From Hysterangium stoloniferum (Eukaryota; Basidiomycota; Agaricomycetes; Hysterangiales; Hysterangiaceae): a stretch of DNA of 64,000 bases. Positions within the stretch are counted from its first letter, which is position 1. Every line of letters begins with the position of its first letter. The notes beneath the pieces were generated by a model. It was not told the origin of the DNA. It ran no database searches and saw nothing but the letters and a program-made list of their open reading frames with translations. Both the position numbers and the translations under genes were made by a program. The stretch is from NCBI GenBank assembly GCA_015178975.1, contig WHVD01000135.1, positions 159,415-223,414 on the forward strand. The letters are read 5' to 3'. Shown in pieces: positions 2,028 to 45,470 of this stretch.

Positions 2028-2416
2028 GATCATGTCGATTTTAAAATTTGAATGTAGGGGAATAATATGAAATTAGATATGTAACATACAAGAACATCTA
2101 AGTGAAATATGAATACATGTCTCGACACCTTAGGAAGGTTCCAGCTGTTTGTTACAATTCATGCAGAAACCGAATAAAAACGTGTCGCTGCATTAAGTCT
2201 TCCCTAGATTCAGTACTCTCCACCCGTTGGTTAATCGGATGCAGGGCAGTTGCCAGGGTGCAAATAGAAAAAAAAAGAAGTAAAAGTCTTAATCAGCGAG
2301 CAGTGTTAATAGCCCCAGACAATGGCTTGCGCATGTAACAGGACTCCGGGGGCGAACGAAGAGAACAACAGGATATTTCACCGACCGAGTAAAAATAACA
2401 AGATAGTATTACAATA

Positions 2417-3235
2417 TCACCATGGCTGCAAACAAGGGAAGTTGATATAGAAGTTCAACAAACAACTGGCACACTCACCATTCCAGCAAAAAGGCGACCG
2501 TCAGCATGTGTTTCGTATGTGGTATCGCCACGTGCCTCGTTTACCTTTACAACATCAAACTTCCCCGACTCCGCATTATAGTGGAAGATCCGCTTCACAC
2601 CTGCCCACCTACACCATTCAACGCATCGCCAACAAGGCCTCGCGTTCCCCAACCCGTGTTTCGTGATTCTCGCCACATACAGATCAGCACCGTTAACTCT
2701 CGGATCTCTACGACGCCCAGACCGCTGTCGAACAGATTCGTTAAGGGCATGCGGGACGTCCTCCTCGTCCTCTGGCCCCGATCGATGTGGACTCGCGCTG
2801 CGACTCTCGCTCTCCGACGACTCCGAGCTGTTCATCCCCCGCCCCTTCTTCTTCCGCCCGTGCTTGGTATGATTCTTCGCCGAGTAGCGTCCATGAAAGA
2901 CACCACTCGACTGCCTGGCCTTTCGCCGGACGCACGCCTGTCCGTGGTTGTCGTTCGGGAACACGGCGATCGAAGACTTGGTTTTGGGACTGCTGCTTGA
3001 ATGCGGGGGACATGCCAGTGGCGTTGAATATTGCGTGCATTTCTGCGTGCATTGATGTAGGCTTGCGGTGGCCGCGTTTAGCGACTTCAGAACCGTCGTA
3101 ATGTGGACGATGGTGATTGTAGCCTGTAGAGATAATCTTTCCACCTTTGACCAGGATTGCACCCAGGTTGAAGCACATTGTAGACTTGGAGGCGGCATCA
3201 GCGCACTGAGAGAGGTAAAACTGCGACTTGCTCAT
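2417..3235 (-). CDS. Cytidine/deoxycytidylate deaminase family protein, copy 1 (apparent +1 frameshift)
   Basis: Zinc-dependent CDA-fold deaminase. The N-terminal half has GAILVKGGKIISTGYNHHRP and the zinc/proton-shuttle motif HAEMHAI. The C-terminal half has PCWRCVEWC, the second zinc ligand pair. Between them is a charged, serine-rich insert (SSESSESESRSASPHRS). The last exon is tiny: GTGAGT after the codons GLFAGM-type end, CAG at about 2426, then PW and TGA. The halves lie in different frames. Compared with the second copy at 44480, one extra C sits in the CCC near 2988 (AGTCCCAAAACC against AGTCCAAAACC), moving the frame between HAE and PCxxC. So this copy is either broken by one base or the base is an assembly error. 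Substrate (free nucleotide or RNA) cannot be told. Confidence 0.8.
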
Positions 3236-3236
3236 T

Positions 3237-3254
3237 GTTATCGATCTCGATAAC
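3237..3254. promoter_or_regulatory. Palindrome GTTATCGATCTCGATAAC just before the deaminase start
   Basis: Perfect inverted repeat (8 bp, 2-bp centre, 8 bp) ending one base before the deaminase ATG on the minus strand. It contains two opposed GATA/TATC cores. The second deaminase copy keeps the arms GTTATC and GATAAC at 44461-44478 in the same place. Could be a GATA-factor site or a 5' UTR hairpin; function not shown. Confidence 0.45.
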
Positions 3255-3598
3255 AGGTTAATCTTTACAAGTCAAACCAAGTCAATATAACAGCTCTCAA
3301 TTGTATTCAAAATATCAAACTTACATTTCGCAAATGGCTTCTAATTTATCCAAGATATAAGGAAAAACGATTGGCTCTAGGAATGGCCCTCGAGAAAGTT
3401 CAAAGTTAGGTTGTAGTCCGTGACTCAACAAAAATTTAGGCGAGTCACAGCTATATGTCACAATTGTAATCAAATGATGGTTCAATTTTTAAATCGCAAA
3501 ATCCTGATAAAAGAACCCAAAATCGTAATATCCATCCAGCTGTCGTTAAAATACAGTAAGCAAAGGCCCATATGGCATCATATTTCCAGACAACCAAA
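3255..3598. other. Intergenic between deaminase and CHO2
   Basis: Holds the promoter side of the deaminase and the 3' flank of CHO2. No gene seen. Confidence 0.5.
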
Positions 3599-6500
3599 TC
3601 AATGGAGGATCTCCTTCGACACCAGAATTCGATTAGCCAACGCAGACAGGTTCGCATCGGCCACAATAACTTCTGTCGAATATTCTACGTCGAACACCTG
3701 TTCTATAGCCTTCGCCAGTCTCTTCGCTTGCTTCTCCGACCAAAAATTAAAGTCGTCCGGATCGTGGTCATCATTGACGATCCGTTCTGACGAAGACTGA
3801 GACGATAGTGGTAAGAGTGACGGATCTGCATCGAGGGCGAGGACTACGAGACGCATGAGTGTCATACGGACGGAATTGAAGGTTAAATCAGGCGCCTTTT
3901 CAACTGTGCGAGAATGGCCATTACTGGGAGGTATCAAAGCGAGGAGCTGCTTGTTATCTCACCATATATCTGCAACGTTGCTGTGCTTATCACATTATAC
4001 TTGCCGTCATGATGGTACCTTACCTAAATGTCTGTCAGAATTACTGCTCGAGAAAGTCCAGGGAGCATCAACATCTTACTTCATATTCTCCACACGTCCA
4101 TGGTAACTTGTCCCCTTTAAAGACGACCTCGCCTACCTCTTTCATAGGAGAATCGGGTTTTTCAAACTCCAGCGGTACATCGCCATCCCATCCATCGTCA
4201 TACACAGGAACCCACATGCCCAACGACGACACCTTCGTTACCATCGATGACTTGTTTGCACTTTTCTGTAGAATAGTCAGTCAATAATACATTATAAACA
4301 CCCGCCGGTGCCCACCCTATATATCCCGATCCAGTCTCGTTTCGAATGCGTCGCGGGAGCGCGCCATTGAACAGTAATGGGCTCTCCAAGATGGAACCGA
4401 GCAGGATCGGCCTTGATTGTAATATGGTACTTGGATCTGTCTAGGGCAGCTATATCGCTCGTAACGCGGCTATACAATCCCACAGTCCACATGTCAGACG
4501 CTTACAAAGGATACAATAACTGTAACAACTACAGACCTTATAACGAACTTCTCCCTCGAGTGCTTTAATAACACCCTGGTATCTTGTACGACTTCTGATA
4601 GCGCTGGTTTTAGCAAAAGCTCCTTCATCGCCTCCGCAGTCTCCTCATACACCTTGTCAAACGTGCCTTTGACTTCTTGGGCGACTCGTTTGATCTCAGG
4701 GACGTGTCTACCCGCTCGGGATTCCAGGAGCAGCGCGTTCTTCATGGCGACCTTCTTAATGACCTTTGTCAAACCCGCTTCTTGGCGCAATGATGACCCA
4801 TAAAGCCGCTGCATGTGTGGGCTGAGGAAAAACAGAACAGGAGGTCGAAATGATGACATGACATGAAAAAACGCAACCGCTTACTTCTCAACCTTGCTAA
4901 GGAACCACCAGTGCGAAATTTGAGAAATAACAGCAAGCGCGAACACAAGTTTGCTTCCACTAATAAGTGCCAATCCGAAGAACGCCGCGCCGCTCATCGT
5001 TCGCTCGGGGTTGTTTAGGAAACTGGTGGCATGAGTTAGCCTGCTTATGCATGGATATTGACCAACTGTGCGAACTAACCGATAGATACCGGTGTACTCA
5101 AGTGTAGCTGGATAATCCTCGATGAAGAAATCGCCGAAGAACCACCCTGAACACGACATAAGTGGATGAAACATGGATGATACAGACAGGCCATACCAAA
5201 GACACCCAGAACATCATAACACTCGGCAGCAGTCCACATATGCAGTCCAATGAGGATCTAAATTCACCTCGTTAGTTCGTGGCAGCGTCAGCGATTTAGC
5301 ACAGACTGACAGCGCCAAGTGTATGCCGAAGAAGCTGGTCGCCGACAGTCCATTCAGCAGGTATCGAATATGTCTGCCATGCCAAACCCACAAACGAAGC
5401 TACAATCGCCGTGTTTTACAAACGTAAGCAACTGGCATCCCTAACACAAAAGCACGAATACCCACCATACGTCATACACAAGCTTAAATTATACAACGAC
5501 TTCCAATTATTGAACGCCTCACGGATAGCGTCCTGACCGGCCTGCTTTCCTGGGTAATGATAATGCGTGATGAAGTGGCGCACGAGGAATTTGCTCTCGC
5601 TTTGTGCCTTCAAAAGTAGCCCTAGCCCGAAAGAGTGGAAGAAACGCCATGCAAGGGCATGTACGAAGTGATACGCTAGGTGCGTGCGCGTGGAGCTAAA
5701 ACCAGGTTGGAGGAAGCTGAAGCAGAGGGCGTAGCCGAGGAGAAGCACCAACTTGACGTCCGAAGCACTGACATTGGGCGTAAGGTCGCTGTCAGAGCAC
5801 AACAAAGTGCAACATACCGGAAAGGGTCGATGTTGCGAATGATAAGCGTGTCCTTTCTGAAGTACATATTCATAAGATCGTGTTGAGTGAGCGTCGGAGC
5901 CCGTGGCCGCTTTACAGGAGGAGCCCTACTCGGACTATCGTTCCTCTGCTGAACGCTCGTCGACGGGCCGTAAACTTCATCCATCTCAGTCTCGAGATCC
6001 GTCTCCGGTTCCGATGTCTCTCCCTCCGTAACAGTGGGCGTAGTCGAAATATCCATGTCCAGCACGGCTCTAGGCTTCCGCGGGCGGGCCCCAGGCGGCG
6101 TTGCAGAGCGCGCCATCTGTGGTGCAAACAAAGGCGTACGTTGTGCGATGGGCTTGCGCTGCCCATACATACGTTCGATATCTACGTGCAGGTGATTAGC
6201 GTTTGGAAATGCAGTTCTGTTGAAGACTGCTGACGGGGGTTCTCGAAGAATACGAGGAAGGCAAACTGCGCTGCGTGGGCTGCAAGACTGACGAACAGGA
6301 CAGGGTAGCTTCCGACGATGAGGGATAGGCCGTAGTATCCGGCATAGCCTAGAGTGGGAGTTAGCTTGTGTACGATAATATTGCAATATAGACAGGCCCA
6401 TTTTTGCTGACAAAATTGCAAATTCCACTGGCAACGTAGCCTGGATATGATCTTTTACAGAAGCCCACGGGCGGTTTATTCCATTGCTATTCTGGAACGT

Positions 6501-7685
6501 GGCAGATTTAACAGAAATAGGCTATTTATATTCTTTGTCCTTTGAGTGTAAACTCGGTAGCCAGTTTAGTTTGCCAAACGTCAAAATAGCAATAAATTCA
6601 ACACGCCACGGTGAACCACTTGTAAGGGAACCTCCGTCCAGTGGATGCTTTTATATGGTATTTTCGCAGCGCCTGGTTGATGAACATAACACGTACCAAC
6701 GGAATACATAGGGTGCGGTGCCATTTCGAATACACCATCAAACACCAAAGCGCCGCGTTGGAAGAAGACGTCGCCCCAATACCAACCGTAGTCTTTGACG
6801 ACATGGTGTGCCTCAGTCTTGACCCAAAGATTGAATGCAATAAGAACGATTCCACTGATCCATCTGTAAAGATGAATGGAAAATTTTTCATTCGCAGGCG
6901 GGAAGGCACATACCTCATAATGTGCATAACGGTGGACAGACCGTCTGGAACGCGGAAACACGCAAATGCGAACATGCAGTAGGACAAAAAGTCGCTGTTT
7001 GTTATATCAGTCGTGCATGCAAAACTACTGAAAAAAAACGTACTTCAATAAAATGATGTCTACGGCTTGTCGGAAAAGTAGCCATGTATTATACTCTAAT
7101 GGCAGTTCCTAGTGGGGAATGTCAGACTAGACAAAATCCAAATTATGCGCACGAACATCAAATGAATAATCCTTTCCCATCTTTCCCTGGAGCTGACTCC
7201 GAATCCATGCTCTAACTTTCGGTCTCTTCTCGCCATCTAGCCAGGCACGACGCTGAACCTCACGCACAATCCATTTCTTCTTGCTTTGTTTGGTGAGAAC
7301 CCAGCCAAGCCCAGCATCATAGGCAGTCCGCCAAAATACGAAATAAAAGAAGAAAAAGGGCTTCGCAATACGGTTGGGCAATAGAGCAAATAGCACAAGC
7401 TGAGAGCCCAAGAGGGCAAGATTGACCAGATCCAAGTGTGATTTTGGGTGCCACGGGTGAAACAACGAAGTCAAGACATCATGCGTTGTTGGAACACGAA
7501 AAACTGTGTCACATGGTTGTTATCGCCTTACTATGGCTATAAAGGGTTGCTTCCTTACCCGTTCCGCTAGGAGTTTTGCCCCACACGACCTCTTCACGGC
7601 GCGGTGTCTCTGTCTCACTTACAGAAACATTGGCAGAAGGCTGTCCTGTAAGTGAACGACGCCTTCGTGCTCCTGGTGATCCCAT
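3599..7685 (-). CDS. CHO2: Phosphatidylethanolamine N-methyltransferase CHO2
   Basis: Transfers a methyl group from S-adenosylmethionine to phosphatidylethanolamine, the first step of phosphatidylcholine synthesis in the ER membrane. Exons read in order: start [12 protein letters not shown] at 7685, then [99 protein letters not shown], a low-complexity linker, the second membrane module ([38 protein letters not shown]), the soluble C-terminal domain with DWIGIYRVG, then [20 protein letters not shown] and [13 protein letters not shown] before TGA. About ten introns of normal size join these in phase; I saw no break. Two methyltransferase-like membrane halves plus the DWIGIYR domain are specific to fungal CHO2, so the call is firm. 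Housekeeping gene, divergent from the DUF1365 gene with 175 bp between starts. Confidence 0.93.
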
Positions 7686-7860
7686 CTATGGAACAAAAGT
7701 TGGTCAAAGGAGAAGCAAGCGAGCAGCAGCCTTGGAGATCCAGAGACACTGTATTTTATATTAAGTCACGCCGTCACAGTCTATGCGGTATGTCACTGCG
7801 TCTGGTCTGGGAACTACTATCCCGTTCAGATTAACGCTATCTACTTATCCCCGTGACATC
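7686..7860. promoter_or_regulatory. Shared intergenic region of CHO2 and the DUF1365 gene
   Basis: About 175 bp between the two divergent start codons, so it must hold both promoters. No specific site could be assigned. If the upstream in-frame ATG at 7783 is used for the DUF1365 gene the gap shrinks to under 100 bp. Confidence 0.4.
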
Positions 7861-9509
7861 ATGCTTGCTGGCAAAGCTTATATTCTTCAGAATCAAGTCA
7901 CTCATGTTCGCTATCTACCATCTCTTTCGAAGCATTCATTTATGTATCCTACTTTCTCACTGCTTGTTTCCTTGAATTCGCTGGAAAACAACGAGCTTCA
8001 ACTTTTTGGGGGCTTATTATTCGGGTACGGTAGTATTTGGAATCGTGTCACCGGACTTGGAGCACGCGGTTATTTGTATAATATTCCGAAAGTTCCCCGG
8101 ACGATCAGGCACAAACTTATTGATGTGTTAAATTCGCATGGACATAATGGAGAGGAATTGGATGATTCATGGTTAATGACTATGCCAAGCTTCCTCGGAA
8201 TTGAGGGAATAAATCCGTTATCTGTTCATTTCTGCTACAGACGTGGCAGCACTGCTTTATGGATTACCGTCTTAGAAGTGAGTCATATATCAATACCACA
8301 TTGTTAGACTCGTCTCCAACTGAATCCCAGGTGCACAACACTTTCGGGGAGAGACACGTTTATGTGCTAGACGCTGCTAATAGCAAGGAAGTTACCCACG
8401 AGTAAATTAGGAATATCACATTACAAATCTACTTGTGTTCTGACATATTCAGTAGCTTTCATTACCAATGGACATTTCCTCGACAATTTCACGTGTCTCC
8501 ATTTAATGACCGCTCAGGGCATTATCTGTGTCAAATGATCCCGCCCTCTCGTCCACCTTCTGACACTCCATTGCCACATCCAAGACCAATAATCAAATTA
8601 ACTTTACTGACTGCTCCGCCACAATCAAGCAAAAAGCTCGTAGCCGTCCAACGTAGTGTATCGTGCACCCCACTCTCGAACTGGAATTTACTCTCCACCC
8701 TCATCTGCTCTCCTCTTGGCCTTCTCCTCGCTCTTCCACGCATAATTTATCAAGCTTATTTATTACACTACCATAAACGACTCGATGTGTATGCACGCCC
8801 CGAACCATGTGCACCCGACTCATCTATTGAAGGCAATTTGCCGACTGTTATCAACAAAGTTCAAACAGACGCGCATTACCCTCCTCGCGGTGCAGTCGGT
8901 TGGGCCAGTAAAGGTTTACTAGAAAAGTGGTGTGAAAAGCGCGTTTATCAATATTTACGCCGCCGTATTACCATCATGGATATTTCAGTCACTTTCATTC
9001 CGGCCAACATAGCTGAGAGGCGGGTGACAATATCTCCCGAAACATCCCAGGGCAGTCGTGTGCTTATAATACATTATCGCTCACCTCGAATCTTTCCCAT
9101 CATTTTTATGACGCCGTCAGCCGCTCACGCGCTCCTCTTAGGCGTGCACGCCGACAAGGTGTTCTCGGTCTCCTCAGAAGACCTATTCAAAGAAGCATTT
9201 AGCGCTTCCTCCGAGGCCGTTGTCCAGAAACAGCCCTGGCTCGCTCGTAAGGCACGGAACATCCGAGAAGCTTCTGTCCCGTCACACTTGGGCCTGACAA
9301 TACCGTCATGTCACCCACTAGACGACCCTCCGAGAGTAGTGGCGATCCTGGTTCTCTCACTCTTGTTTCTCTTGGAAAGAATAGAGAAAGGTGTGTTTGG
9401 TGTTTTCAGAGCCCGGTTTGTTGAAGGTAATGAGCCGTGGGGAGGATGGGAAAGGCTTGTGGAAAAGCGAACATTGGCCGTACTGGGTAGTGTTAGGAGA
9501 GGACCTTGA
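7861..9509 (+). CDS. DUF1365 family protein
   Basis: Three exons join in phase: 7861-8277, 8331-8401 and 8453-9509. The product starts MLAGKAYILQNQVTHVRYLP and carries the family signatures: FGYGSIW, the NPLSVHFCYRR block, HNTFGERHVYVLD across the first intron, then FHYQWTFPRQFHVSPFNDRSG across the second. The C-terminal part is longer than bacterial DUF1365 proteins and has hydrophobic stretches (near FPIIFMTPSAAHALLLGV and VVAILVLSLLFLL). Bacterial relatives sit beside cyclopropane-fatty-acid synthases and amine oxidases, hinting at lipid modification, but no reaction is known. Start chosen at the ATG next to the conserved region; 7783 is an alternative. Coding looks intact. Confidence 0.82.
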
Positions 9510-10609: not shown

Positions 10610-11970
10610 AGAATTTCGTCCGATAGAACATCAGAATACTGAAAAGTTCTGCACCACAAAGTTCGAGAAGTAACCAAAATCCCGCAGGTCCTCCAGAGAA
10701 AGGAGGCGATGTTCCTTTTGTTTGATTGAAGAGACGATATGGGTGCAACTCCGACGGCTCCGCCTAATTCCAACGCAGCATTGAAAATAGCCCCCACTAT
10801 CCCTAATTGCGTGGGCAGTGGAGCCTTCCGGAGAATGGTGAGACCGATACCTTGAAAATCAAACAAAAGTATCGTGATATGTATCGCGTCGGACATACTT
10901 AAAGTGTATAAATGTCAAAGCTGTACCGGTGACTCCGATGCAGAAGGCGGGAAATACAGAGGACCAATTCCACCTGGACTATTTGCGAGTGGGAGAAGTG
11001 GTTAAGTTGTTGCCACCAATGTTAATCACTCCCCTGTGAAGATATTCGACTTCGATTCGAATCTATCAGAAAGACCACCAGGAGATCCCATGACTATGAT
11101 TCCCACAGTGGTAGGAAGCCTGAGTTTTTAACAGTGCTAAACCAATAGAGGCATCTTGGACGACTTGAACAAATGGACGTACAAGTGTGCTGTACACAGC
11201 AGTGGGTTTCAAGTGTAGATGTCATGTCACGACATGCTAAGCTGATGAAATACTGACGTCTACATCAGGAAAGTGGGAAGATCAGTAAGTACGCCGTCTA
11301 TATTGTCTAGAGCCATCTAGGAGAGCTAGCTAGCTCGGCTAGACTCGGCTAGACACCCTACTTTCGAGAGATCCCTATTTACTAGTCGGTATACAGCTTA
11401 CTATAGATCTAGGGAGTCTAGGAAGGCTAGGGAGTCTATATTGTAAGTGTAGACATTCCCAAATCCCTGATGTACCACACAATGGGGAACAAAGAAACTA
11501 CAAAGATAATAGAGGAGTTGAGGATAGATAAAACCACGTTTTTGGCGTAAAAACACTCAATGCAGTTAGATTTCTTCAAGGGACACTATAACAACGGGAC
11601 TTACAGTATGACGGTTGCAGATGGTATGTGGTTTTTCCACCAGATAAAAAATCCTAAAGAGACCACTGAGGTAACCAGGGGAGCAACAATAGGGCATCCC
11701 CACCCATATGTGGATCCAGACCCTACTGTAGGTATAAATAGCAGCAGGGATAGGGATGCTGGAAGTACTTTCATATGCATTGACGTGTGAGAAGACTGGA
11801 TTTTAAATGTTCACTGGTTAAAAATGAGATACCAATAATATCCAGAACTTGTCGGAACAATATGCCTCCCTGCCAAAGCTTCCTCATTCCTCAATAATAG
11901 AATGGAAGGAACAAGTATAAAGCATATCAATGCCACGTATTATAGGGAAACCATAGCCTCGTGATTCGCA
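10610..11970 (-). pseudogene. MFS transporter remnant (3' part), paralogue of the gene at 30878
   Basis: On the minus strand this matches the MFS gene at about 31580-32700 exon by exon: the GAGGCTATGG exon, the 'WASPIV' exon, the CCAAAAACGTGG exon, then TPTQ-GIVGAIFNAALELGGAVGV and PPFSGGPAGFWLLLELCGAE. The N-terminal half (first TM segments, LTFASFLLCSG, IGIG) is missing. Indels and frame changes occur throughout, for example a 10-bp shortening near 10727, and a 210-bp MITE sits in an exon. It cannot make a transporter. Together with the deaminase at 2417-3235 it forms the inverted partner of the MFS-deaminase pair at 30.9-45.3 kb. Confidence 0.85.
11263..11472. mobile_element. MITE (Tc1/mariner-like), copy 1, inside the MFS remnant
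   Basis: 210 bp, begins CATCAGGAAAGTGGGAAG and ends TTCCCAAATCCCTGATG, so the ends are inverted repeats of about 17 bp. It is flanked by TA at 11261-11262 and 11473-11474. The paralogous MFS exon at about 32041-32053 lacks it, giving a direct empty site (TGTGTGG then GACGTC). The interior is rich in CTAG-containing repeats such as GCTAGCTAGCTCGGCTAGAC. No coding capacity. A second copy lies at 57581-57782. Confidence 0.9.
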
Positions 11971-29507: not shown

Positions 29508-30877
29508 AGCGGTGTCGCCGCGTAAATTGTACTTGTGAAGGACAATAACTGTAACCTAAATTGACGAAAACGATTGAATCGACGAGGCATAAAGAGCAAC
29601 AACATAGCAGCTCCAAGTTCTTACTGTGGCTCCAATAGCTGCAATGCGTGGCGTGATAAAAGCTGTTAAAGTGTCGCTTAGTTTGAAGATGAGCTGTGGC
29701 ATTTGCGTGGTTGTGTTTGTTTGACAATCCTAAAGTTTTCAAAGGCAGCGAATCTCGCGAGATGGGGAAGTTGATTAAGAATTTAGAAGAACGGACTCAG
29801 TCGTGACCCTTACATTTGTGGGGACAAGAATATTAAATTTGCAATAGCCTGAGAATCCAAGCTGGATCAATCACTTAAAACTTTAGCATGACCAGGATGG
29901 GGGCGTTCTTAGAAACTCAGAAACGATTACTGCCGATCAAAAGATCGGTTCTGTTTAAACGCTGATGTAAGTCCTTAGCCTATATCTATAAATAAATCAT
30001 TTATTTTCAATTATTTGAAGAAATCTATCTTTAATGAATAAGAAATTTTCGCTGTCAAGATATCTGTTATATTTTTTCAACTTTGATAATATTTATATAG
30101 AAGTCCTCTAACTTTAAGTCCACAATCTTCCAACAAACGTACTGATGTCTTTAATATGATAATTATGAGAAAACCATTGACATTAAGAAGAATACATCAT
30201 ATATCAATACATAGGGAAGAAGATCAAGTTGAGATTTGGAGAGCATAGGATTTTCTTACCATCATAATTTGATATTATTTTTATATTTTGGAATTATATA
30301 ACATTCCTTTTTTATTATATTTGTAATTGTATTAGTGATAGATACCTTTCCAAGATTTTATCTAGTACCAGTAACCAGCACGGCGAGCTCAGTTCCATTT
30401 GTTCTTCAGATGATCGCTACTAATTCCATTCTACACCGGAGATTCATTTTGTGCTGATAGCTTGTGATCCTAGCGCCCTTCTTATACGTGATATCAAACC
30501 TTCTGGAAGAGCAAAGAGGCCACGGAGCACTGCACTTAAACATTACCAAATTTGTACAAAAACTCTACCACCTCCCAAATAAATCTGATTTTTATTCCCC
30601 TTGTAAAAAGCTTGCTTTTGGCTGTAGGAATATTTTCCCAAGAGTAATTTCTTTTAGCTCCAAAACTCACATTTTCTGACTTGAATATGAGTCAACTCAA
30701 TTCAAAAATTCAGTTTCCAAGGGTGTTCTTCGGGTTGACATACCCCAGATATGTGGTACTAGGGTTAGCACACTGTCAATTTAGTACGTGTACCAAGTTA
30801 AGTTGGTGTCTAAGTGCGGTGCTCCATGGACAGTGGGTTGTAAACAAGGCATCCGTCTCGATTTATTTTCCCCTGCT
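29508..30877. other. Divergent intergenic region of P450 C and the MFS gene
   Basis: About 1.37 kb, very AT-rich at 29980-30350. No gene seen. Must hold both promoters. Confidence 0.45.
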
Positions 30878-32828: not shown

Positions 32829-32949
32829 TTCTATTGTATTAATACACCCCAGCCGAACTATACATCGTTTAATATTTATAAATGTCTTTTTTATCCCATC
32901 TCTAAGTATATCCAAGCTGAAGGGGATCGCCACAAACACAGTGAGCATC

Positions 32950-32980
32950 CAAGCATTCTAAGAATTTCTTAGAATGCTTG
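32950..32980. repeat. Perfect 15-bp hairpin at the edge of the gypsy insertion
   Basis: CAAGCATTCTAAGAA, one T, then TTCTTAGAATGCTTG. The last four bases form the start of the CTTGT target duplication of the Ty3/gypsy element. Lies between the MFS gene and the deaminase pseudogene in the pre-insertion sequence. Confidence 0.7.
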
Positions 32981-32981
32981 T

Positions 32982-33383
32982 TGTAATCCTGGTGGTCTTA
33001 CGACAGAAACATACGTCACACCAACACTGACCGCTCACCGATTGTCTCCCCGATCATCCCCCTTCTGGTGGCCACACCATCCCGCTCGCCTATTGTCGCC
33101 GGGATTGTTCCCCTTTTTTCGTCTCGCTGCCCTGATCGCAATTATTAATTTCCCGTCTCCGCGATCACTTCCCCCTCGAACAACATTTTTCTTGTGCCTT
33201 GGTGCCTTTGTTCTCCAATTGTTCCGCCGGAAGAAGTCCTTTAAGAGAGAATCTTTTAGTAGCTACTCTCATAGAAAAAGAACTCACCTATCACTTACTG
33301 TCTTACTGTATATTGTTACGATTCGCAATCAGATAACATTGTCCTGTCTGTTGCTGAGTGAGGCTGATACCTACAGCCTTACA
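32982..33383 (+). repeat. 5' LTR of the Ty3/gypsy element
   Basis: 402 bp, TG...CA, almost identical to 44056-44449 from TGGTGGTCTTACGAC onward. The visible differences are mostly single-base transitions. Confidence 0.9.
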
Positions 33384-33471
33384 CTTTTTTTTTGACATCG
33401 ACAAAGCTCTGACCACCGTGTCTCACTTACTGTCAACATCTACACCACCGCTCACTCGCTCGGAAACAAGA

Positions 33472-34490
33472 TGGAGACACCAACTCGGATTACCCTCTCT
33501 TCTCATCAATCCCTTCACAAACGATACACCAACCTCACCCACCTGACCCACTGAACCTGATTCATCAGAAACTGAGACCAATACTGACACTGAACCCTTC
33601 AGGCTACAACCATATGTGTCACACCACAACCTACCATCATCACGACAATCCAAGAAAATAAAAATGCCACAAGTAGACGACTCACAACCTATCGCTGAAG
33701 TTAGGATCAGCAAGCTGAAGGAATGCCCCATGTTAACCGCTGGTCGATACATGCCACTGGTTCACCAAGGCTGGTCTGTTGCCTGCTGGCGATACATGAA
33801 ATTTGGAGAAAGAAAGTCTGAAGAGGTGGTTAGTTATGTAGCCGACGCAATGATGGAGCCATGACTTATGGCCTGGTACCAGGGAGATCAAAAACATCTT
33901 GATGGTCTCACTCTATATCAGTATCTAGAAGAACTGGCTTCCATCACACTCGAAAAGAACTGGGCTCACCTTATCAGGGAGAAAATCCTCACAACCCCTC
34001 AAGGCAACCACAGATTCATAGATTGGAAAATCGAGATGGAGAACCTTAATGCAATCTTAACCACCTCGGCCAAATCTTTCGCACTATCAACAGCCACTTT
34101 AAAAACACAACTCAAAGCAAACCTTGACAAAGTGCTCAAGTGCAACCTCTTCATCGAGCCGATCATCTCTACAGAACTTGCTGCATGGACCCATGAGGTA
34201 AAAGAACGCGATGAACACATTCGTGAACAACAAGAGATTGTCCAAGAACAGATTCTAACAAATAATGCAGCCCATGCCCTGCGCCACAATGAAAGAAAGG
34301 ATTTAGCCTCCAGATTATCAGATCCTCCTTCGAACTCCATGTCCACCACCAAAATTGCCAGCATAAAACTCCCCAGGCTAACGGATGATGAATGAAAACT
34401 CCTGCAAGATCATGGTGGATGCACTCGCTGCCGCAATTTCTACACAGGACACCGTTCGGACACTTGCCCAATGAAAACCACCAACTCATG
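33472..34490 (+). pseudogene. gag pseudogene of the Ty3/gypsy element
   Basis: Capsid-like protein. Recognisable parts: LTAGRYMPLVHQGWSVACWR, then MAWYQGDQKHLDGLTLYQYL, ITLEKNWAHLIREKILTTPQ, DWKIEMENLNAIL, WTHEVKERDEHIREQQEIVQ (coiled-coil-like) and the zinc knuckle CTRCRNFYTGHRSDTC near 34423-34470. Nonsense codons TGA at 33862 and 34393 and a frame change near 33546 break it. After NSW the frame continues at 40715 once the solo LTR is removed. Confidence 0.82.
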
Positions 34491-34531
34491 GTGTTACGAC
34501 CGTGTTGCAACCCTATTGGTCCCGAGGTTAT

Positions 34532-35584
34532 TGTTAAGTTCCCGAACAAAGCTCCACGGATAGTCCCGCGGAGGTTTCCGGTAACTATTCTGAACACACA
34601 CTTGCTTCCGGGAAATAGTCCCACGGATTCCCCGGGCAATAGGTCCCGGGAAAGTTCCGGGGATTATTAGTACAAGGAACGGTGATATCAGAATAATTAC
34701 CAGAAAGATATGGTGAACGACTGAGATGGACTTGGCTTCAGCTTATAGGCTGCGCCCTCGTACACTCATTCGGGTGTCCATATTTCAAGCTGACAGAATG
34801 CATACAGAAAGATATAGATTCCGGAGTTCCCGTGGGAGTTCCGGGAATCGAGTGTGCAGACAGACAAGAGGACTAGAGACTGTTCAAGGATCAAACTTGT
34901 TCGGGGGAAAACTAGTTCGAGATTGAAACTGGATTCTAAGTACATGAACATAGCAGACTTATATAGACTGTGAAATGTAATAATACCAAATCCGGTATTA
35001 ATGAGAGGCAGAACTATTAAACATAAAACAAAACAGGTAAATACTAAACTGGGAATAGGGACGGAACGGAACGGGAGCAGAGAATGAATCATGACAGATC
35101 ATTTAACCATAACTGGAGCGGGGCTCAGTTAGAGGGGTTCCGGAAGTCCGGTCGGAGTCCGGTGACTTGGTGCACAAGATAGTGTCGGGTATAGACAGGC
35201 TTGATGTGCAGGAGGTCCAGTGGAGTCCGGTGGGTTTTCCAATGACTGGTGTGTGAGACGCAGAGACAGATAACAGGAGCGGGGTTCTATGCTCTGTTAG
35301 AGGGGTTCCAGGAGTCCGGTCGGAGTCCGGTGACTGGTACATAAGACACAGAGTGTCGGGTGTACATAGAGTGGAGTCCGGAGTCCGGTGGAGTCCGAGG
35401 ACTGGTGTATGAGACAGAGGGTTAGGTGCAGACAGGTGGGGTGCGTACAGAGAGTCAGGCATAAACGAGTTGATGTACAGGGTCCCGTGGGAACTCCGGT
35501 TGTTACTATACAATATAGAGGGTCGGGAGCATGTAGGATGGGGTCCGGGGGCCCGGAGGCCGGCGGGTTTTCCGGTTCCTGACA
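34532..35584 (-). repeat. Left LTR (3' LTR by orientation) of the LARD
   Basis: 1053 bp, TGTTAAGTTCCC to TTCCTGACA on the plus strand. Open frames inside it are not genes: the same frames recur in the right LTR. Confidence 0.93.
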
Positions 35585-38500
35585 GTACCCTCCCCTTAAG
35601 GCCGAAGTCCCATAGAGGCCATAGGAACATGATACGTTTGTTGGTTACACGTATGTGTCAACGAGTTGTATGATCTGGAAGGGAAAATTTGACCAAGAGC
35701 AAGTGATGGTACAGACAGCTCTTGAAGACAGATAGTGGCGGAAGTAGAGACGGAGTCCAAAAACAGGACAGAGAACCCACACAAAAAGTGATGGGTCCAC
35801 GGAAAGGTCCAGGAAACTGACCAAGTGACAGAAGCACAAAGTGCTAGCAGGAGTCTGGGCGGAGCCCAGGCTGTTGGCCATGTGCACACCTCAAAACAAG
35901 GTGCTCACTAGTGCGCAAACCCATGGGAAAATAAATCCCGGGAAGCGGGATGGCACATGGAAAGGCCAGGGGTCTTGGAGGAGATTGTAGACATACTGGA
36001 TACTTGAAAGTAAGTTGAAACCTCTGAAAAAGGTCCAAAATCCAAAATGTCGAAAAATCCAACAAGGGCTGAAAGTCCGGAAAAGTCCGGAACATAGTTC
36101 GGAAGATCTGAGGGGTCCGGGGGTTCCGAGAGGTAGGAGACAGGTGATGAAAACATCCAGAGATGTCACAATGGACCGGGAGTTGCCCAAAGGCAAAGGG
36201 ACATGGCAGAGTGAGAGTGGTCAAAGGTCGCAGTGTCCACAGGCAGGGTAAGTGCCCAAGACATAAAAAACCTGAAGGAACCAGATGTTGTGGAAAAGCC
36301 ACAGGGGTTCCGAGGGCAGGTCAACCTTAAATCACAAGGAACAAACATGGGGAAAAGCCACGGATATTCCGATGGCAAGCAGGACTTGTCCAAAACTTGA
36401 ATGGTCTGTATCATGGGTTCCTGGATGAGAACCGGGAAATCCGGAGGTTCCGGGAACACACTGGATGAGAACCGGGAAGTCCTAGGGTTCCGAGAATACA
36501 TTGGTGACATCAAGAAGTTTGGATAGAACTGCAAATGGGCTGAAGGGTGTAGATCTGGGAGGTCCGTGGGTTCCGGGATATGCTATATGAGAACCGGGGA
36601 CTCCAAGAATACCCTGGGTGAGACCCGGGAAGTCCGGGGGCTCCGGGAATGTACTGGTGACGAAGAAGTCCTCAGCAGGATTGCCACAGAACTGGAGGAG
36701 TGAACAACAACCCAAGAGCAAAGACAACTTGGAGGACAAGTCATCTAAGGGTCTGTAGAGTCCGAGAGTTCCATGGAATAATGACCGGTTGGGGAAGTCC
36801 ATGGGACCCGAGGAAGTAATGCTCTTACAACAGGGAGCATAAAGGGGGTCGGGGTCCAGTGGAGTCTAGGTTACTACCACTGAGGTCCATGGATTCCGAG
36901 GAATAACCCAAAAGGGTCATGATGGACAGGAGGCTGAAAGGATGGATACTTAACTCATCTGCCACTTAGTGGACTGAGAGTCGAGTGTGGTACAAAGAGC
37001 TAGAAAGGCAAAGAGAGACATAGGGTGACAGGGAATGATGAAGTGAGTCCAAAGGTGCGGAGTCCACGGATAGTGTGGCTAGAGAGAGGTTAGTGGGTAG
37101 AGAGGATATGGGTTTCAACTTATGCAGGTTTACTATAGCATAGTCGTTACTCCAACATTTACAGGGGTCCACGGATAATGCATAATGCAGCTAGAGAGAG
37201 GTTAGTGGGTTTCAACTTATGCATGTAGGTTTACAATGGCATAGTCGTTACTCCCCTCTTTGGGATAGACGTCCCATCGTCTAGACAAAATGTCGGGTTT
37301 TCCATGGAGGTGGCTGGGTCGAAAACGGATGACTAAAAATCAAGTCAAAGGGTTGGTGCCAAAGGAGGTCAGGATTGCCGAAAGAAGGCAGTGGTGCCTG
37401 AAAAGGCCATGGATGCCTGAAAAGGCCTGAGGGTTGCCCGAAGGCCAAAAGAAAATGCCTGAAAGGCTGCATTAACTGATCTTGGCAAACGAAAACTCAA
37501 CAAATAGGTAGGATCCAAATAGTTCGGAAATCCCGGAAAGTCCGGAAATCCGAAGAATCTGAAAGGTCCAAGGGTTCCGAGGATTCCGGAAAGTTCGGAA
37601 ATATCCACGGAAACCGAAACCGAAATTAAGTGAAAGAGTTGAAAGCCAAAAGAAAAGAGATGCCGAAAAGGTCAGAGATGCCCAGAAGGGCCATGGGTGC
37701 CGGAAAGGCCATGGGTGCCTGAAAAGGCCAGGGGTGCCGAAAAGGCCATGGGTGCCGGTAGAGGATCACAAGGGCCATCGAGGCCACAGGTGCCGTTCGG
37801 GTCAGGGAAGTCTGAAAAGACCATGGGTGCCTAAAAAGGCCGAGAATGCCTAAAAAGGCCATGGAGGCCATGGAGGATCACAAGGGCCATCAAGACCACA
37901 AGTGCCGAAAAAGCCACGGAAGTCTGAAAAGACTCAGAGCAGACAAGACAAGTCAAATAAGAGGCATCGGGAATTCCGGAAAAGTTACTGCTCATTACCC
38001 AGAAATCAACGGATTTATAGCGGGTGAGACAGTGGTATCCTAGAAATAACCAAGCAACTTATCCAACACTGGTCAAGGTGACGTCCAGATTTGTTCCACA
38101 AGGAAACAAATAAAAGCTCCTCAGAGAAACTGAAAAGAGCCAGAAAATGTCCTGGAAGGGAACAGAAAGCCAGTCGCAGTTTGGAGTGTATCCAGGTTGC
38201 AAAAGACCGACAGAAAATGTTGCATGAAATCTTCCTGACTCGGAATCCGATCTGCCGGGAAACCCGGAAAGTCCGGAGAGTCATTGTAGGAAAATACAGC
38301 AGGGCAGAGAGAGTCTGAAAGGTCGGGAAAAGGTTGGAGAATGAGTCGGAAAACAGAGACATGACAAGGAACATGCATGGGACAGACATGGACCAAAGGG
38401 TCAGTCGGAAAAGGGTCCAAACAAAAGTTCGGAAAAGTTCGGAAAGGTCCAGGAACCAGAAAAGGTCCGAGGACAAGGCAGATAGCGAGGGTAAGCAAGG

Positions 38501-38967
38501 CGATGTCGATTTGGAAATGTGAGCAATGGTTTTAGGAGGTATATCTGTAAAGAAAACCAAGCACTAGGTGACCAACACATTGAACACTTGAATCCATAGT
38601 ATACCGTCAAGGTAATTGGCAGACAGAGCGCAATTCCGGAGGCCGGGGGAAATCCGACACTATGGTGACTAGTAGGGAAATAACCTATCTAGAATATCCG
38701 GAAATGAACGGGAGTCGAGCAAACCAGGGGCAGGACAAAAGCAAGGATCGGGGCAGGGCAAAAGAGTGGATCTGAGTAAGACACGATCAGCTTCAGCCAT
38801 TGACTTATCTCTGCATCTGGAAGTCAGAACGAAGTCTGAAAACACAAGCAATTCTGTAAAAGAATAAGTAATGCGATGCCGATGTAGAACTGTGAACAAA
38901 TGAATGTGGAATTTAAAACATGGGGTCAGATAAGGTAAACGAGTGACGAGTTGTAGTTTCAATCTAC
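35585..38967 (-). other. Internal non-coding region of the LARD
   Basis: Built of repeated short phrases: TCCGGAAAGTCCGG-like runs, and near 37680-37900 repeated AAAGGCCATGGGTGCC and TCACAAGGGCCAT. Open frames here give low-complexity HPWPFQ-type products and have no domain. No gag or pol can be seen on either strand. Confidence 0.8.
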
Positions 38968-40020
38968 TGTTAAGTTCCCGAACAAAGCTCCACGGATAGT
39001 CCCGCGGAGGTTTCCGGTAACTATTCTGAACACACACTTGCTTCCGGGAAATAGTCCCACGGATTCCCCGGGCAATAGGTCCCGGGAAAGTTCCGGGGAT
39101 TATTAGTACAAGGAACGGTGATATCAGAATAATTACCAGAAAGATATGGTGAACGACTGAGATGGACTTGGCTTCAGCTTATAGGCTGCGCCCTCGTACA
39201 CTCATTCGGGTGTCCATATTTCAAGCTGACAGAATGCATACAGAAAGATATAGATTCCGGAGTTCCCGTGGGAGTTCCGGGAATCGAGTGTGCAGACAGA
39301 CAAGAGGACTAGAGACTGTTCAAGGATCAAACTTGTTCGGGGGAAAACTAGTTCGAGATTGAAACTGGATTCTAAGTACATGAACATAGCAGACTTATAT
39401 AGACTGTGAAATGTAATAATACCAAATCCGGTATTAATGAGAGGCAGAACTATTAAACATAAAACAAAACAGGTAAATACTAAACTGGGAATAGGGACGG
39501 AACGGAACGGGAGCAGAGAACGAATCATGACAGATCATTTAACCATAACTGGAGCGGGGCTCAGTTAGAGGGGTTCCGGAAGTCCGGTCGGAGTCCGGTG
39601 ACTTGGTGCACAAGATAGTGTCGGGTATAGACAGGCTTGATGTGCAGGAGGTCCAGTGGAGTCCGGTGGGTTTTCCAATGACTGGTGTGTGAGACGCAGA
39701 GACAGATAACAGGAGCGGGGTTCTATGCTCTGTTAGAGGGGTTCCAGGAGTCCGGTCGGAGTCCGGTGACTGGTACATAAGACACAGAGTGTCGGGTGTA
39801 CATAGAGTGGAGTCCGGAGTCCGGTGGAGTCCGAGGACTGGTGTATGAGACAGAGGGTTAGGTGCAGACAGGTGGGGTGCGTACAGAGAGTCAGGCATAA
39901 ACGAGTTGATGTACAGGGTCCCGTGGGAACTCCGGTTGTTACTATACAATATAGAGGGTCGGGAGCATGTAGGATGGGGTCCGGGGGCCCGGAGGCCGGC
40001 GGGTTTTCCGGTTCCTGACA
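38968..40020 (-). repeat. Right LTR (5' LTR by orientation) of the LARD
   Basis: 1053 bp, same length as the left copy. The sequence just inside it (minus strand GTAGATTGAAACTACAACTC) should contain the primer-binding site; I cannot assign the tRNA. Confidence 0.93.
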
Positions 40021-40714
40021 GTTATCGCCACTTATCAACGTTTTCAAGTCACCATTTCGGAAACCATCAGCCCCGAAGCTGACATATGTTTTCGCGAAGA
40101 TCAAACTCCGTTTATGCCCACGTCAAAATAACTCGTATTGTCTGGTCAAACTTTTGATACGTCCCTTTTATTATGTTGATCCATTCAATCTTATGTTTCA
40201 CATATGTCTATCTATATTTGTAGTCCTTGAACTATTTCCTTTTATCATAATCCCGCTCTCGGTTATCATCGGCCTCCGAACTAATCATAAACTTCCCGTT
40301 CCTAGTCAAGCTTATTGTTAATGCCATTTTCCGCCCTTCTCCCCATTAGTATTTTCTAGACGCCTGTTACTTGTATATGAACCCGCTGTAGTTGTAGTTA
40401 CTAGGCAATCAGAATATCAACTCAGAATACCCTCATACGTCTGTAACAGTCCCATACTAAGAACCCCCCCATCCACCTTCGCGTGCACTCGCCCACTCCC
40501 GGCCCCGACCCCTAGGCCTGACGCTCAACTTGTCCTTCGGTTCCGATTGGTATCTCGCCGAAAGGAGCTCTTTAGGATTAGTCTTCGCCCGCCCGAAATC
40601 TAAGGACACCCTACGGATATTTGCAAGGGCGCAGCACATAAGCTGAAGCCAAGTCCTTCTGATCGGTCCCTGTCGGCCACCGACATTAGTCAGTTTTCAG
40701 TTCTTAACACATGG

Positions 40715-43700
40715 CCTGATGTTGCCACATAAAAACCACTCACAATGTCAATGGCCCGAGCTGCTGCCCCTCGGACCACTGCCGGTCTTGCCCTGGTGAA
40801 AATTGAGGAATGCATGGATGAAGATACGGATACGTATGTCATTTCCTCCCCCAAATCACAAACTCCTTTTACAGTCCCTCATCTCTACGCACCCGTAGAG
40901 CTTACGGGACACCTCATTTCCGACTTCCCTCTTCCGATAAAAGCATTACTTGACATTGGCTGCCCTTCCACAGTGATTAGCAATGCCCTGGTTTTGCAAC
41001 TAGGCCTACATCAATTTCCCCTCCCAGCTGCAGAGGACAACCTTTCATCACTAACAGAAACACCTTTGAGTTGCAAGGAATTTGTGAAATAAAAAATTGG
41101 ATCAGGAAAGGGAACATGGCAATCAGGGGTTTTTAAGGCAAAAGTGAATGTTAGGTTACCTGTACCACTTATCTTGGGAATGCCATTTCTTTCATCTCAC
41201 CATATTGTGATCGATACCACCAAGTGTAGCACGTGCGATAAAAGGGTCAATTATGACCTCATCAATCCAAGAAGGTGGAAACAAGGCATGACCACAATTA
41301 CACCTAAATCAATGGCCACACAACGACCCTCACCAAGACCACCAAGCCGAGCAGTATCCGAACCACCACTGGCAGGATACTTATGACCAATCCCAATCAT
41401 GGCGGCAGTACGTGAACATATTGAGGCCCTCATGTTTGAAGAAAAATTAGCCAAAAAGGATCTTGAGTTTAAAAAGACCTTTGCTGACTGTTTTCCACTG
41501 CGCTTGCCAGACACAGCTGCCCTGCCTACACACATATACCACCGTATCTGTCTCAAAGATCCCTCAAAGGTTACAGTTGGACGGGGATACTCTGCTCCCA
41601 AAAAATTCCACGACTCCTGGAAAATTCTCCTCGAAGAGCATTTGGCAGCTGGACGCATAAGACCATCTTCCTCGGAATATGTGTCACCTGCCTTCTGTGT
41701 CCCTAAATATTGAAATGGGGTGCCTGTTTTTGATATCCCACCATGATGGGTAAATGATTACCGTGAACTAAATAAAAATACCATACGTGATAATTATCCC
41801 CTACCCCGTGTTGATGACATCCTTTCTGACTGCGGACGAGGTGTCATATTTGGGAAAATTGATATGACCAACTCCTTTTTTCAGACCAAAGTACATCCAG
41901 AGGACATACATTTGTCAGCTGTGCACACACCTTGGGGCCTTTATGAGTGGACCATCATGCCAATGGGGGGTTGCAATGGGCCATCTACACCAACAATGGA
42001 TGACAGATGCATTACGACACCTCCTGGGGAAGATATGCCACGTTTACCTTGATGATATTATCATTTGGTCGAAAACCCTGGAGGAACATGAAAAGAATGT
42101 GGCTACCATCCTGCAGGCACTCCACATTGCCCAGCTATATTGTAATCCTGAAAAATCCACGCTATTTGCCACAGACATTTCCTTCCTTGGACATCACATC
42201 TCTGCCACAGGCATTCGTCCAGATGCCCACAAAACCGAGTGCATCATCAATTGGCCTCAGCCAACAACAGCAACTAACATCAGGGGTTTTTTGGGACTCA
42301 CCCGATATGTTTCAGCTTTCCTCCCTGCCCCTGCAGAACACACCAGTGTACTCACCCCCCTGACTATGAAGGATTGTGATTGACACTTCCCCACCTGGAC
42401 CACTGAACATCAATACACCTTTAATGCCATTAAACATTTGGTCACAGGTGCAGATTGTCTCACAGTCATCGACTATCATGATACCACCAGTCAAATTTTC
42501 CTGACCACAGATGCCAGTGACAGACGTACTGGGAAAGTCCTCAGTTTCGGGAAGGACTGGACAACAGCCCGGCCAGTTGCCTATGATTCTTATCAACTTA
42601 ACCCTGCTGAGCAGAACTACCCTGTCCATGAAAAGGAACTGTTAGCCATCATCAAGGCACTAAAAAAGTGGCACACCAGCCTATTAGGATGCCATTTCAA
42701 TGTCTACACTGATCACCGGACACTAGAATATGTTCAATCACAGAAAGACATGTCCCACCGGCAAATGCGCTGGTCCATGTACCTTGCGGACTTTGATTTT
42801 AATATCATCTATATTCGTGGTGAAGATAATACAGTTGCTGATGCGTTATCTAGGATGCCGGATTGCAACCCTGATGCCAGACACGCTGCCTGCGCCTTGG
42901 CATATACCCATTCACCGCCCAAACAACTTGCAGGTGGGATCCTAAGGATCACAGTGGACCCATCACTCCTAGATCAGATCCGCCAAGGCTACCTGGATGA
43001 TGACTTTTGTAAGCAACTTGAAGACGGCATTGCAGCAGGAAGTATTGATGGGGCTAGGAAGGAGTCAGGGCTCCTGTACGTTGGGCACCGCCTTGTGATC
43101 CCACGAGATATCACCATTCGAGAGATGCTTTACCACCTAGCACATGACACTCTTGGCCATTTTGGCTTTGACAAGAGTTATGAATCTCTGCGCCATGCTT
43201 ATTACTGCCCAAACATGAGGTGAGACCTGCAGGTGGCATATATACCTTCTTGCACAGAATGTCAATGAAATAAAGACCCCACTAGCCGGCCCCGTGGTCC
43301 CCTGCACCCCCTCCCTATTCCTGATGGCCGTTTTGACACCGTCGCCATCGATTTCGTTGGCCCACTTCCTGAAGAAAACGGCAAAGATACAGTCATGACC
43401 ATGACTGATACACTGGGTGCCAATATTCGGTTGGCTGCAATACATTCTTCTTACACTGCCGCACAGGTTGCCGTGGTGCTGTTTGATGAGTGGTACTGTG
43501 AAAATGGATTAATGCTCAACCTAGTCTCAGATCGGGACCCCCTTTTTACATCAGAACTCTGGAGCGCCTTGCACAAGCTCTCAGGGGTAAAGCTGAAGAT
43601 GTCCACCGCCTACCACCCACAAAGTGATGGCACCAGTGAGTGCACAAATAAAACCTTGAACCAGGCTATCCGCTACCATGTTGATATTAACCAGAAAGGA

Positions 43701-44076
43701 TGGTCAGCACAGCTGCCCCGCGTGCGGTTCGCTGTCATGAACACTGTGAATACATCCACGGGTTTCTCCCCCTTCCAGTTAAAGACAGGTCGCTCCCCCC
43801 GGGTCATTCCCCCCCTGCTCCCCTTACCCGCTGATGCCACCTCTGCTGAAGCCGCTGCAAACCATATCCTGCGTCGCCTGGAATTCGACGTTCAGGAGGC
43901 ACAGGACAACCTCACTGCTGCCAAGGTCCGACAGGCCTATCATGCTAATGAGAGCCGGGCAGCAGAAATACCATACAAAGTAGGCGACTTAGTGATGTTG
44001 TCCACTACTCACCGCCGCCGTAACTACAAACGGAAGGGCAAACAGCGCGCCGCAATGGTGGTCTTACGACAGAAAT
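40715..44076 (+). pseudogene. Protease-RT-RNase H-integrase polyprotein of the Ty3/gypsy element, broken
   Basis: Order: retropepsin-like region with ALLDIGCPSTVIS (Ile where the active site needs Ser/Thr after Asp); RT with [43 protein letters not shown], then after a frameshift near 42000 [13 protein letters not shown] (YxDD); RNase H with FLTTDASD and YPVHEKELLAI; DADALSR-type end; integrase zinc region, AIDFVGPLP, VSDRDPLFTS and HPQSDGTSECTNK (D, D, E). It ends in HRRRNYKRKGKQRAA where the 3' LTR begins. In-frame stops: TAA at 41090; TGA at 41384, 41711, 41744, 42381, 43221 and 43266. Relatives have arginine at several of these. Confidence 0.9.
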
Positions 44077-44449
44077 ATACGTCACACCAACACTGACCGC
44101 TCACCGATTGTCTCCCCGATCATCCCCCTTCTGGTGGCCACACCATCCCGCTCGCCTATTGTCGCCGGGATTGTTCCCCCTTTTTCGTCTCGCTGCCCTG
44201 ATCGCAATTATTAATTTCCCGTCTTCGCGATCACTTCCCCCTCGAACAACATTTTTCTTGTGCCTTGGTGCCTTTGTTCTCCAATTGTTCCGCCGGAAGA
44301 AGTCCTTTAAGAGAGAATCTTTTAGTAGCTACTCTCATAGAAAAAGAACTCACCTATCACTTACTGTCTTACTGTATATCGTTACGATTCGCAATCAGAT
44401 AACATTGTCCTGTCTGTTGCTGAGTGAGGCTGATACCTACAGCCTTACA
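44056..44449 (+). repeat. 3' LTR of the Ty3/gypsy element, 5'-truncated
   Basis: 394 bp, aligns with 32990-33383. Starts at TGGTGG directly after integrase codons instead of after a polypurine tract. Confidence 0.88.
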
Positions 44450-44479
44450 CTTGTGCACCTGTTATCGACATTGATAACA

Positions 44480-45300
44480 ATGAACAAGTCGCAGTTTTAC
44501 CCCCTCCCCCCCCCCCCCAGCGCGCTGATGCCGTGTCCAAGTCTACAACGTGCTTCAACTGGGTGTAATCTTGGTAAAAAGGCGGAAGGATCATTTCTAC
44601 AGGTTACAATCACCATCGTCCACATTACGACAGTTCTGAAGTCGCCAAACGCGGACCACAAGCCTACATCAATGCACGTAGAAATGCATGCAACATTCAT
44701 CGCTATTGGCATGTCTCCCGCGTTCAAGCAGCAGTCCAAAACCAAGTCTTCGACCGCCGTGTTCTCGAGCGACAACCACGGACAGGCGTACGTCCGGCGA
44801 AAGGCCGGGCACTCGAGTAGTGTCTTTCATACGCTACTGGGCAAAGAATAATATCAAACACGGATGGAAGAGGAAGGCTCGTGGTATGAACAGCTCGGAG
44901 TCGTCGGAGAGCGAGAGTCGCAGCGCGAGTCCACATCGATCGGCGCCAAAGGACGAGGAGGCTGTCCCGCGTGCCCCTTAATGTATCTGTTTGACAGTGG
45001 TCGGGGCCTCGTAGAGATTCGAGAGTTAACGGTGCTGGTCTATATGTGGCTAGAATTACAAAACACGGGCTGGGGAACGCGAGGCCTTGTTGGCGATGTG
45101 TTGAATGGTGTAGGTGGGCGGGTGTGAAGCGGATCTTCCACTATAGTGCAGAGTCGGGGAAGTTTGATGTTGTAAAGGTAAACGACGCACGTGGGCGGTA
45201 CCACAACGAAACACAGGCTGACGGTCGCCTTTTTGCTGGAATGGTGAGTGTGCCAGTTATTTGTTGAACTTCCGTATTAACCTTCCTTGTTTGCAGCGAC
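44480..45300 (+). pseudogene. Cytidine deaminase family, copy 2 (pseudogene)
   Basis: Inverted duplicate of the gene at 2417-3235, with matching ATG context, coding sequence, intron start (ATG/GTGAGTGTGCCAG at about 45241) and acceptor (CCTTGTTTGCAG). Damage: a C-run at 44502-44518 replaces coding bases after SQFY; several indels in the first 120 bp; HAE has become HVE (catalytic alanine-position change in the HxE block); and later frame changes near 44850 and 44990. The stretch PCWRCVEWC and SGKFDVVKVN is still legible at 45090-45180. At the KQQS-KTKSS junction this copy keeps the open frame that copy 1 has lost. Homology continues into the 3' flank to about 45470 with an internal deletion. 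Confidence 0.88.
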
Positions 45301-45470
45301 ATTTTATTCGGATTCTGCACGAACTATAACAAACATGCTGAAAATTTGCTAGGGTATCGAGACATGTGCTCAGATATCACTTAGATGTCCTTGTATGCTA
45401 CACATTTAATTTCGTATTATTCCCCTACATTCAAATTTCAAAATGGATATGATCAATTTTCAATCGGTTT

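Follow-up and report, generated by a model that had tools for sequence, protein, structure and literature searches.

A probable inverted duplication with reciprocal decay on either side of a cytochrome P450 island in Hysterangium stoloniferum

Mirrored transporter and deaminase genes

Hysterangium is a false-truffle fungus. Hysterangium stoloniferum is placed in the Hysterangiales (Phallomycetidae) and is described as ectomycorrhizal in a passage of PMC7550596. We analysed a 64-kb stretch of its genome (the window), which forms the terminal part of a 223,414-bp contig and runs to the contig end (C41:159415-223414). In this window, a major facilitator superfamily (MFS) transporter gene and a putative deaminase gene each occur twice, in opposite orientation, on the two sides of an island containing two cytochrome P450 genes. 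We consider it probable (about 0.82) that the two arms stem from one inverted segmental duplication flanking the P450 island, followed by reciprocal decay. No prior report of the locus was found in a literature search judged by title. The arms consist of the following features.

2016..2192, minus strand: 3' flank of the left deaminase; matches 45292-45466 at 85.4%; outer edge of the duplication
2418..3235, minus strand: left deaminase; gene model with exons 3235-2912, 2862-2479 and 2425-2418, apparently intact
10614..11961, minus strand: left MFS remnant; internal piece only, corresponding to 31565-32696 of the right copy (blastn 80%)
11263..11473, no strand given: miniature inverted-repeat transposable element (MITE) in the left MFS; 211 bp; second copy at 57580-57782; dispersed family
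30878..32828, plus strand: right MFS; full length, with eight exons separated by seven GT-AG introns (48-62 nt) and a single frameshift, in the last exon
44457..45297, plus strand: right deaminase; broken; it has nine indels compared with the left copy and one in-register stop, and its last exon is deleted
45292..45466, plus strand: right 3' flank; blastn match to the left flank; outer edge of the duplication

Comparison of the window with itself by blastn recovered both pairs, inverted, with E-values from 0 to 3e-51. The deaminase pair (2425-3258 and 44457-45297) was 88.2% identical over 848 columns and the 3' flanks (2016-2192 and 45292-45466) 85.4% over 178 columns. The MFS pair aligned in two segments, 10614-11263 with 32046-32696 (80.4%) and 11474-11961 with 31565-32047 (79.8%). 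The oppositely oriented arms share two genes, their introns and the 3' flank, noncoding sequence included, and outward from the island the order is MFS and then deaminase on both sides. The inverted pairs, the common outward order and the matching 3' flanks had all been proposed from the letters and open reading frames of the window (the sequence-only reading), and the self-comparison bore them out. An outward extension of the arms was rejected: in the 40 kb upstream of the window, matches of at least 60 bases fell on retroelement, MITE and other stretches (including 16627-17162, 47509-47613 and 53116-53384) and none on the arm genes.

The left deaminase model encodes 238 amino acids, is stop-free and has introns of 49 and 53 nt. 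It contains HAE and PCxxC motifs, which we take to be deaminase motifs; in structure comparison, the family matched deoxycytidylate deaminases only weakly (best E 0.0099). The first intron, predicted in the gene model, joins two reading frames, and a Gautieria protein (P0017; 78% identical) matches in the same two frames. We had considered a frameshift in the left deaminase and dropped it because the 49-nt intron joins both frames as in the Gautieria protein. In the right deaminase, approximately 240 bp are gone between two TGCAGC repeats. Since the last exon of the left model lies in this piece, we read the difference as a deletion on the right; the alternative, that the left copy gained the piece by insertion, was rejected. 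Upstream of the start, homology of the right copy to the left reaches only about 25-30 bp. A protein search of the assembly (111,116,353 bases in 554 contigs) found the deaminase only at these two loci (6 of 6 candidates scored). The left deaminase was not found as a Hysterangium GenBank protein among the matches listed (120 of 181) and may be unannotated there.

The left MFS carries four stop codons in its partner's register and several frame-breaking indels. It is without both ends (30878-31564 and 32697-32828 of the right copy are unmatched), and its inner edge lies in exon 4. The MITE inside it is accompanied by a TA duplication, as read by eye, and belongs to a family with at least 40 genome matches, itself included (40 of 605 candidates scored). 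The single frameshift of the right MFS lies ahead of the last hydrophobic stretch. A GenBank MFS protein of H. stoloniferum (P0122; 96%) sidesteps it by an extra gap, at a place where six aligned relatives have sequence. The sequence-only reading had assigned the better deaminase to the left arm and the better MFS to the right. The former agrees with a clean model facing a broken copy. The latter stands in that a full-length eight-exon gene faces an internal piece, but given the frameshift it is not certain that the right MFS is intact. By DNA, the MFS occurred in the genome only at these two loci (2 of 2 candidates scored); by protein, further relatives reached at most 37% amino acid identity (18 of 18 candidates scored).

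Origin, age and decay of the copies

In phylogenetic trees, the two MFS copies were sisters with support of 100/99 (47 rows, with 45 of the 119 outside MFS proteins listed; the left MFS fills 43% of the columns and forms a long branch). The two deaminase copies were sisters with 99/94, and Gautieria branched next with 99/97 (16 rows, with 14 of the 120 outside proteins listed). Each pair was a single clade relative to the outside genes used; grouping of the copies with different outside genes, named beforehand in the sequence-only reading as the outcome that speaks against a duplication, was absent. The sister relation would make the duplication younger than the split from Gautieria.

Synonymous (dS) and nonsynonymous (dN) divergence was calculated with our own NG86 script (2000 bootstraps, gapped codons dropped). 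For the deaminase pair (229 codons), dS was 0.217 (95% 0.145-0.31) and dN 0.067, a ratio of 0.31. For the MFS pair (251 codons), dS was 0.199 (0.134-0.281) and dN 0.163, a ratio of 0.82. The dS values were equal within error, as one event predicts. The lower ratio of the deaminase suggests that the right deaminase stayed under constraint for a time, and the left MFS, born without its first exons, would have decayed at once.

The direction of change was read from 14 outside proteins for the deaminase and 45 for the MFS, at columns with at least 70% outsider agreement. Eighteen of the 20 differing deaminase sites matched the left copy and two the right (18:2, approximately 4e-4 in a two-sided binomial test by hand). 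Among the 44 differing MFS sites, 30 matched the right copy, one the left and 13 neither (30:1, approximately 3e-8). Most changes thus fell on the right deaminase and the left MFS, and the lesions and the polarised sites together show the reciprocal decay suggested earlier.

These data also bear on an assembly artefact, in which allelic haplotypes of a dikaryon had been joined in inverted orientation. In its favour, the assembly is split into 554 contigs, and the window runs to the end of one of them. Against it stand a divergence of 12-20%, different flanks, separate young retroelement and MITE insertions and the lack of further close copies, and we regard an artefact as very improbable.

Between the arms, and how the arms may have arisen

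The genes and elements lying between or within the arms are listed below.

4497..7519 (approximate), minus strand: CHO2-type phospholipid methyltransferase, which we take to be CHO2; PEMT match at 2.3e-10; left arm only
7765..9506, plus strand: DUF1365 gene; PF07103 in two exons; left arm only
18149..20172, plus strand: P450_1; open nine-exon model; outside the duplication
27541..29702, minus strand: P450_2; open ten-exon model identical to GenBank protein P0242; outside the duplication
32982..44449, no strand given: outer long terminal repeat (LTR) retroelement, 11.5 kb; CTTGT at 32977-32981 and 44450-44454
34532..40020, no strand given: nested LTR element; GTTAT duplications; LTRs differ at 2 of 1058 positions

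The two P450 genes are themselves mirrored, eight of their introns correspond by eye, and the large exon of P450_1 has its best match within the genome in P450_2 (searched in one direction). These properties could indicate that a single palindrome spans the region and that the P450 genes were duplicated with it. In a quick-search tree (62 of the 119 outside rows listed), the P450s were not sisters; they fell into separate starred clades with other fungi, P450_1 with Punctularia, Leucogyrophana and two Mycena proteins and P450_2 in a clade of 18. P450_1 ranked 39th, itself included, of 64 proteins compared with P450_2, and the two share 49% amino acid identity, compared with 80-88% nucleotide identity of the arms. 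The tree led us to reject the whole-region palindrome, which we hold to be scarcely credible. Given the different clades, the mirror image of the P450s is old and no part of the duplication. P450_1 was not found as a Hysterangium GenBank protein among the matches listed (120 of 300) and may be unannotated.

Some further observations concern the island and its gene families. An open segment at 24974-25795 matches the acyl-CoA oxidase C-alpha1 domain (PF22924, E 3.8e-6, just over the cut-off). The stretch 16627-17162 (537 bp) has a 93% copy approximately 24 kb upstream of the window (C41:134546-135080). Elsewhere in the genome, at C223:1857268-1860987 and C533:820734-825097, other members of the same P450 family are found at a distance of 3-4 kb from PEMT-family matches, which suggests further P450 clusters.

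Of the 14 species that appear in both lists, 5 had relatives of the MFS and the P450s on one contig, counted by eye among the matches listed (120 rows each), with contigs of equal size taken to be the same: Hygrophoropsis (141277 bp), Leucogyrophana (135727 bp), Mycena epipterygia (758120 bp), Punctularia (2607555 bp) and Favolaschia (772661 bp). For the deaminase and the MFS, the corresponding count was 0 of 15 species, which include none of these five, so that their MFS may be another paralogue. In a further MFS tree, the window pair grouped with the five P450-linked MFS proteins and one other, separate from 33 others (SH-aLRT 100); this tree came from a quick search, has long branches meeting and includes P450-linked rows added by choice. 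The MFS is likely a member of an old P450-MFS cluster; more weakly, the deaminase seems to have been only a neighbour and not a cluster gene. The sequence-only reading had spoken of a duplicated cluster border. The duplication is supported; the word border rests on contig sharing, which suggests the MFS, and not the deaminase, as the cluster gene.

On the right, MFS and deaminase are separated by the retroelements. The LTRs of the outer element (32990-33386 and 44056-44452) differ at 4 of 397 positions; the first eight bases mismatch, and the left edge was placed from the target duplication. A reverse transcriptase domain lies at 41868-42380. Without the retroelement, the right MFS stop and the right deaminase start would be approximately 0.2 kb apart. 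With LTR divergence at 0.01 and dS at 0.2, the insertion would be roughly one twentieth as old as the duplication, if rates are alike. A 31-base palindrome (97% self-complementary) at 32950-32980 lies between the right MFS end and the retroelement; it is close to the junction where the right arm is without CHO2 and DUF1365. Outside the arms, 48772-50985 is an open segment of 738 amino acids that contains tetratricopeptide repeats and seven 126-bp units in tandem, and 60214-63090 is a 959-amino acid open segment with integrase and Tf2-1 SH3 domains, a further retroelement.

In the left arm, CHO2 and DUF1365 sit between the MFS and the deaminase. Both genome matches of the DUF1365 family belong to this gene. 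This CHO2 gene accounts for two of the 14 matches listed by a PEMT scan of the genome, and its exon segment 5679-6521 (281 amino acids) had no other protein match in the genome. That these genes occur in one arm only, as the sequence-only reading had it, agrees with domain matches on the left and no convincing remnant on the right.

Several points weigh against a single duplicated block. No convincing trace of CHO2 or DUF1365 was detected at 30-47 kb: nothing there matched the DNA of 3260-10613 at an E-value under 1, and the strongest protein match, 30 residues long with E = 0.003, fell inside the retroelement. Dead pieces of this interval occur elsewhere, namely one of CHO2 at C223:1945852-1946191 (82% and 67%), one from the DUF1365 gene, covering its end, at C101:802553-803200 (75% and 73%) and one of 10354-10613 at C546:26423-26680 (78-79%). 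The latter match stops at 10613, and the left MFS piece starts at 10614. From these fragments it follows that the genome also scatters gene pieces one by one. Stretches within 3412-4360 recur on C431, C58 and C88 and are probably repeats. The frameshifted right MFS has drifted too: of 100 columns in which 90% or more of the outsiders agree, it keeps only 79 (the left copy keeps 63). The DNA search for the deaminase returned the same two loci, with only 40 of 239 candidates scored, most of the others being LTR ends. Finally, noncoding divergence (K) is uneven, at 0.151 for the 3' flank, 0.123 for the deaminase intron and 0.22 for the MFS introns (standard errors 0.03-0.04), though compatible with one age.

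The scattered fragments could mean that two unrelated small copies landed here, a deaminase fragment beside the right MFS and an MFS fragment beside the left deaminase. The degenerate copies, of about 1 kb each, would suit this account, as do the stray pieces on C223, C101 and C546. It is improbable in view of the equal dS, and mirrored landings within about 10 kb of a 111-Mb genome would be very unlikely (approximately 5e-5 by a rough hand estimate).

Under a single inverted duplication, a block reaching from MFS exon 4 to a point some 0.2 kb past the deaminase would have come to lie, in mirrored orientation, on both sides of the P450 island. The left copy (2016-11961, about 9.9 kb) has its inner edge in MFS exon 4, and the outer edge of the right block is at 45466. 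The block probably also held CHO2 and DUF1365, whose right copies would later have been deleted together with the deaminase promoter. On the left the deaminase was kept and the MFS lost; on the right it was the MFS, next to the P450s, that was kept and the deaminase that was lost. Much later, as target duplications and LTR identity show, an LTR element and then a second pushed the right MFS and deaminase 11.5 kb apart.

The most likely mechanism would be an inversion of the island by staggered breaks that left the sequence of one breakpoint inverted at both ends; we hold this tentatively, at somewhat less than an even chance. The gene order of the arms fits duplication of one breakpoint segment, and two different breakpoints would give opposite orders. 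An inversion staggered over different genes at both breakpoints was therefore rejected, as it would put the deaminase ahead of the MFS on the way outward in the right arm. A staggered-break inversion gives each copy one native side, which from the survival pattern would be the inner side of the right copy and the outer side of the left. This matches the MFS being complete where it adjoins the P450s and the deaminase where it adjoins CHO2 and the outer flank. An inverted insertion without inversion of the island, in which template switching or break-induced replication copied the block across it, would yield the same anatomy and the same dS, and the scattered fragments of the same block show that copying happens here. 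Nothing at the locus separates it from staggered breaks, but the native-side pattern needs no extra step under inversion; we regard such an insertion as a real possibility that falls clearly short of even odds. A more speculative proposal, a real possibility though less likely than not, is that a staggered-break inversion duplicated the border of an ancient P450-MFS cluster and that selection for linkage chose the survivors, the transporter with the P450s and the deaminase, CHO2 and DUF1365 on the chromosome side. If true, it was duplication with reciprocal loss, and not transposition, that separated the cluster from the genes once next to it.

Comparison with known systems

The locus would be a relatively dated case in which a fungal P450-transporter cluster was re-bordered, its edge mirrored and each side keeping different genes. 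It also calls for caution in annotation: dead copies stand beside live ones, a young retroelement hides a former gene adjacency, and the mirrored P450s look like part of the palindrome and are not.

Excerpts of PMC5080602 describe the Drosophila subobscura inversions O4 and O8 as staggered-break inversions with inverted duplications at both ends, and O8 and five others as carrying a duplicate from one breakpoint only. According to a passage of PMC7584159, O7 is alike, and repair alone could give such duplications. Our locus would resemble these inversions in having the sequence of one breakpoint inverted at both ends. It differs in that the interval is fungal and 20 kb long, the block is about 10 kb, and the copies, with dS about 0.2, are both old and decayed.

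Divergent resolution, the reciprocal loss of duplicated genes, is known mostly after genome duplication. As there, each copy here retains a different member of the duplicated set; in contrast, both copies lie 20 kb apart on one chromosome, so that gene order is altered locally. As in the P450 and MFS clusters of Agaricomycetes suggested by shared contigs, the right MFS is head to head with P450_2 and has P450_1 nearby. Unlike those clusters, the island has duplicated neighbour genes on its flanks and has been invaded by repeats. As a reciprocally decayed inverted duplication, the locus is a clear but ordinary case, known in kind.

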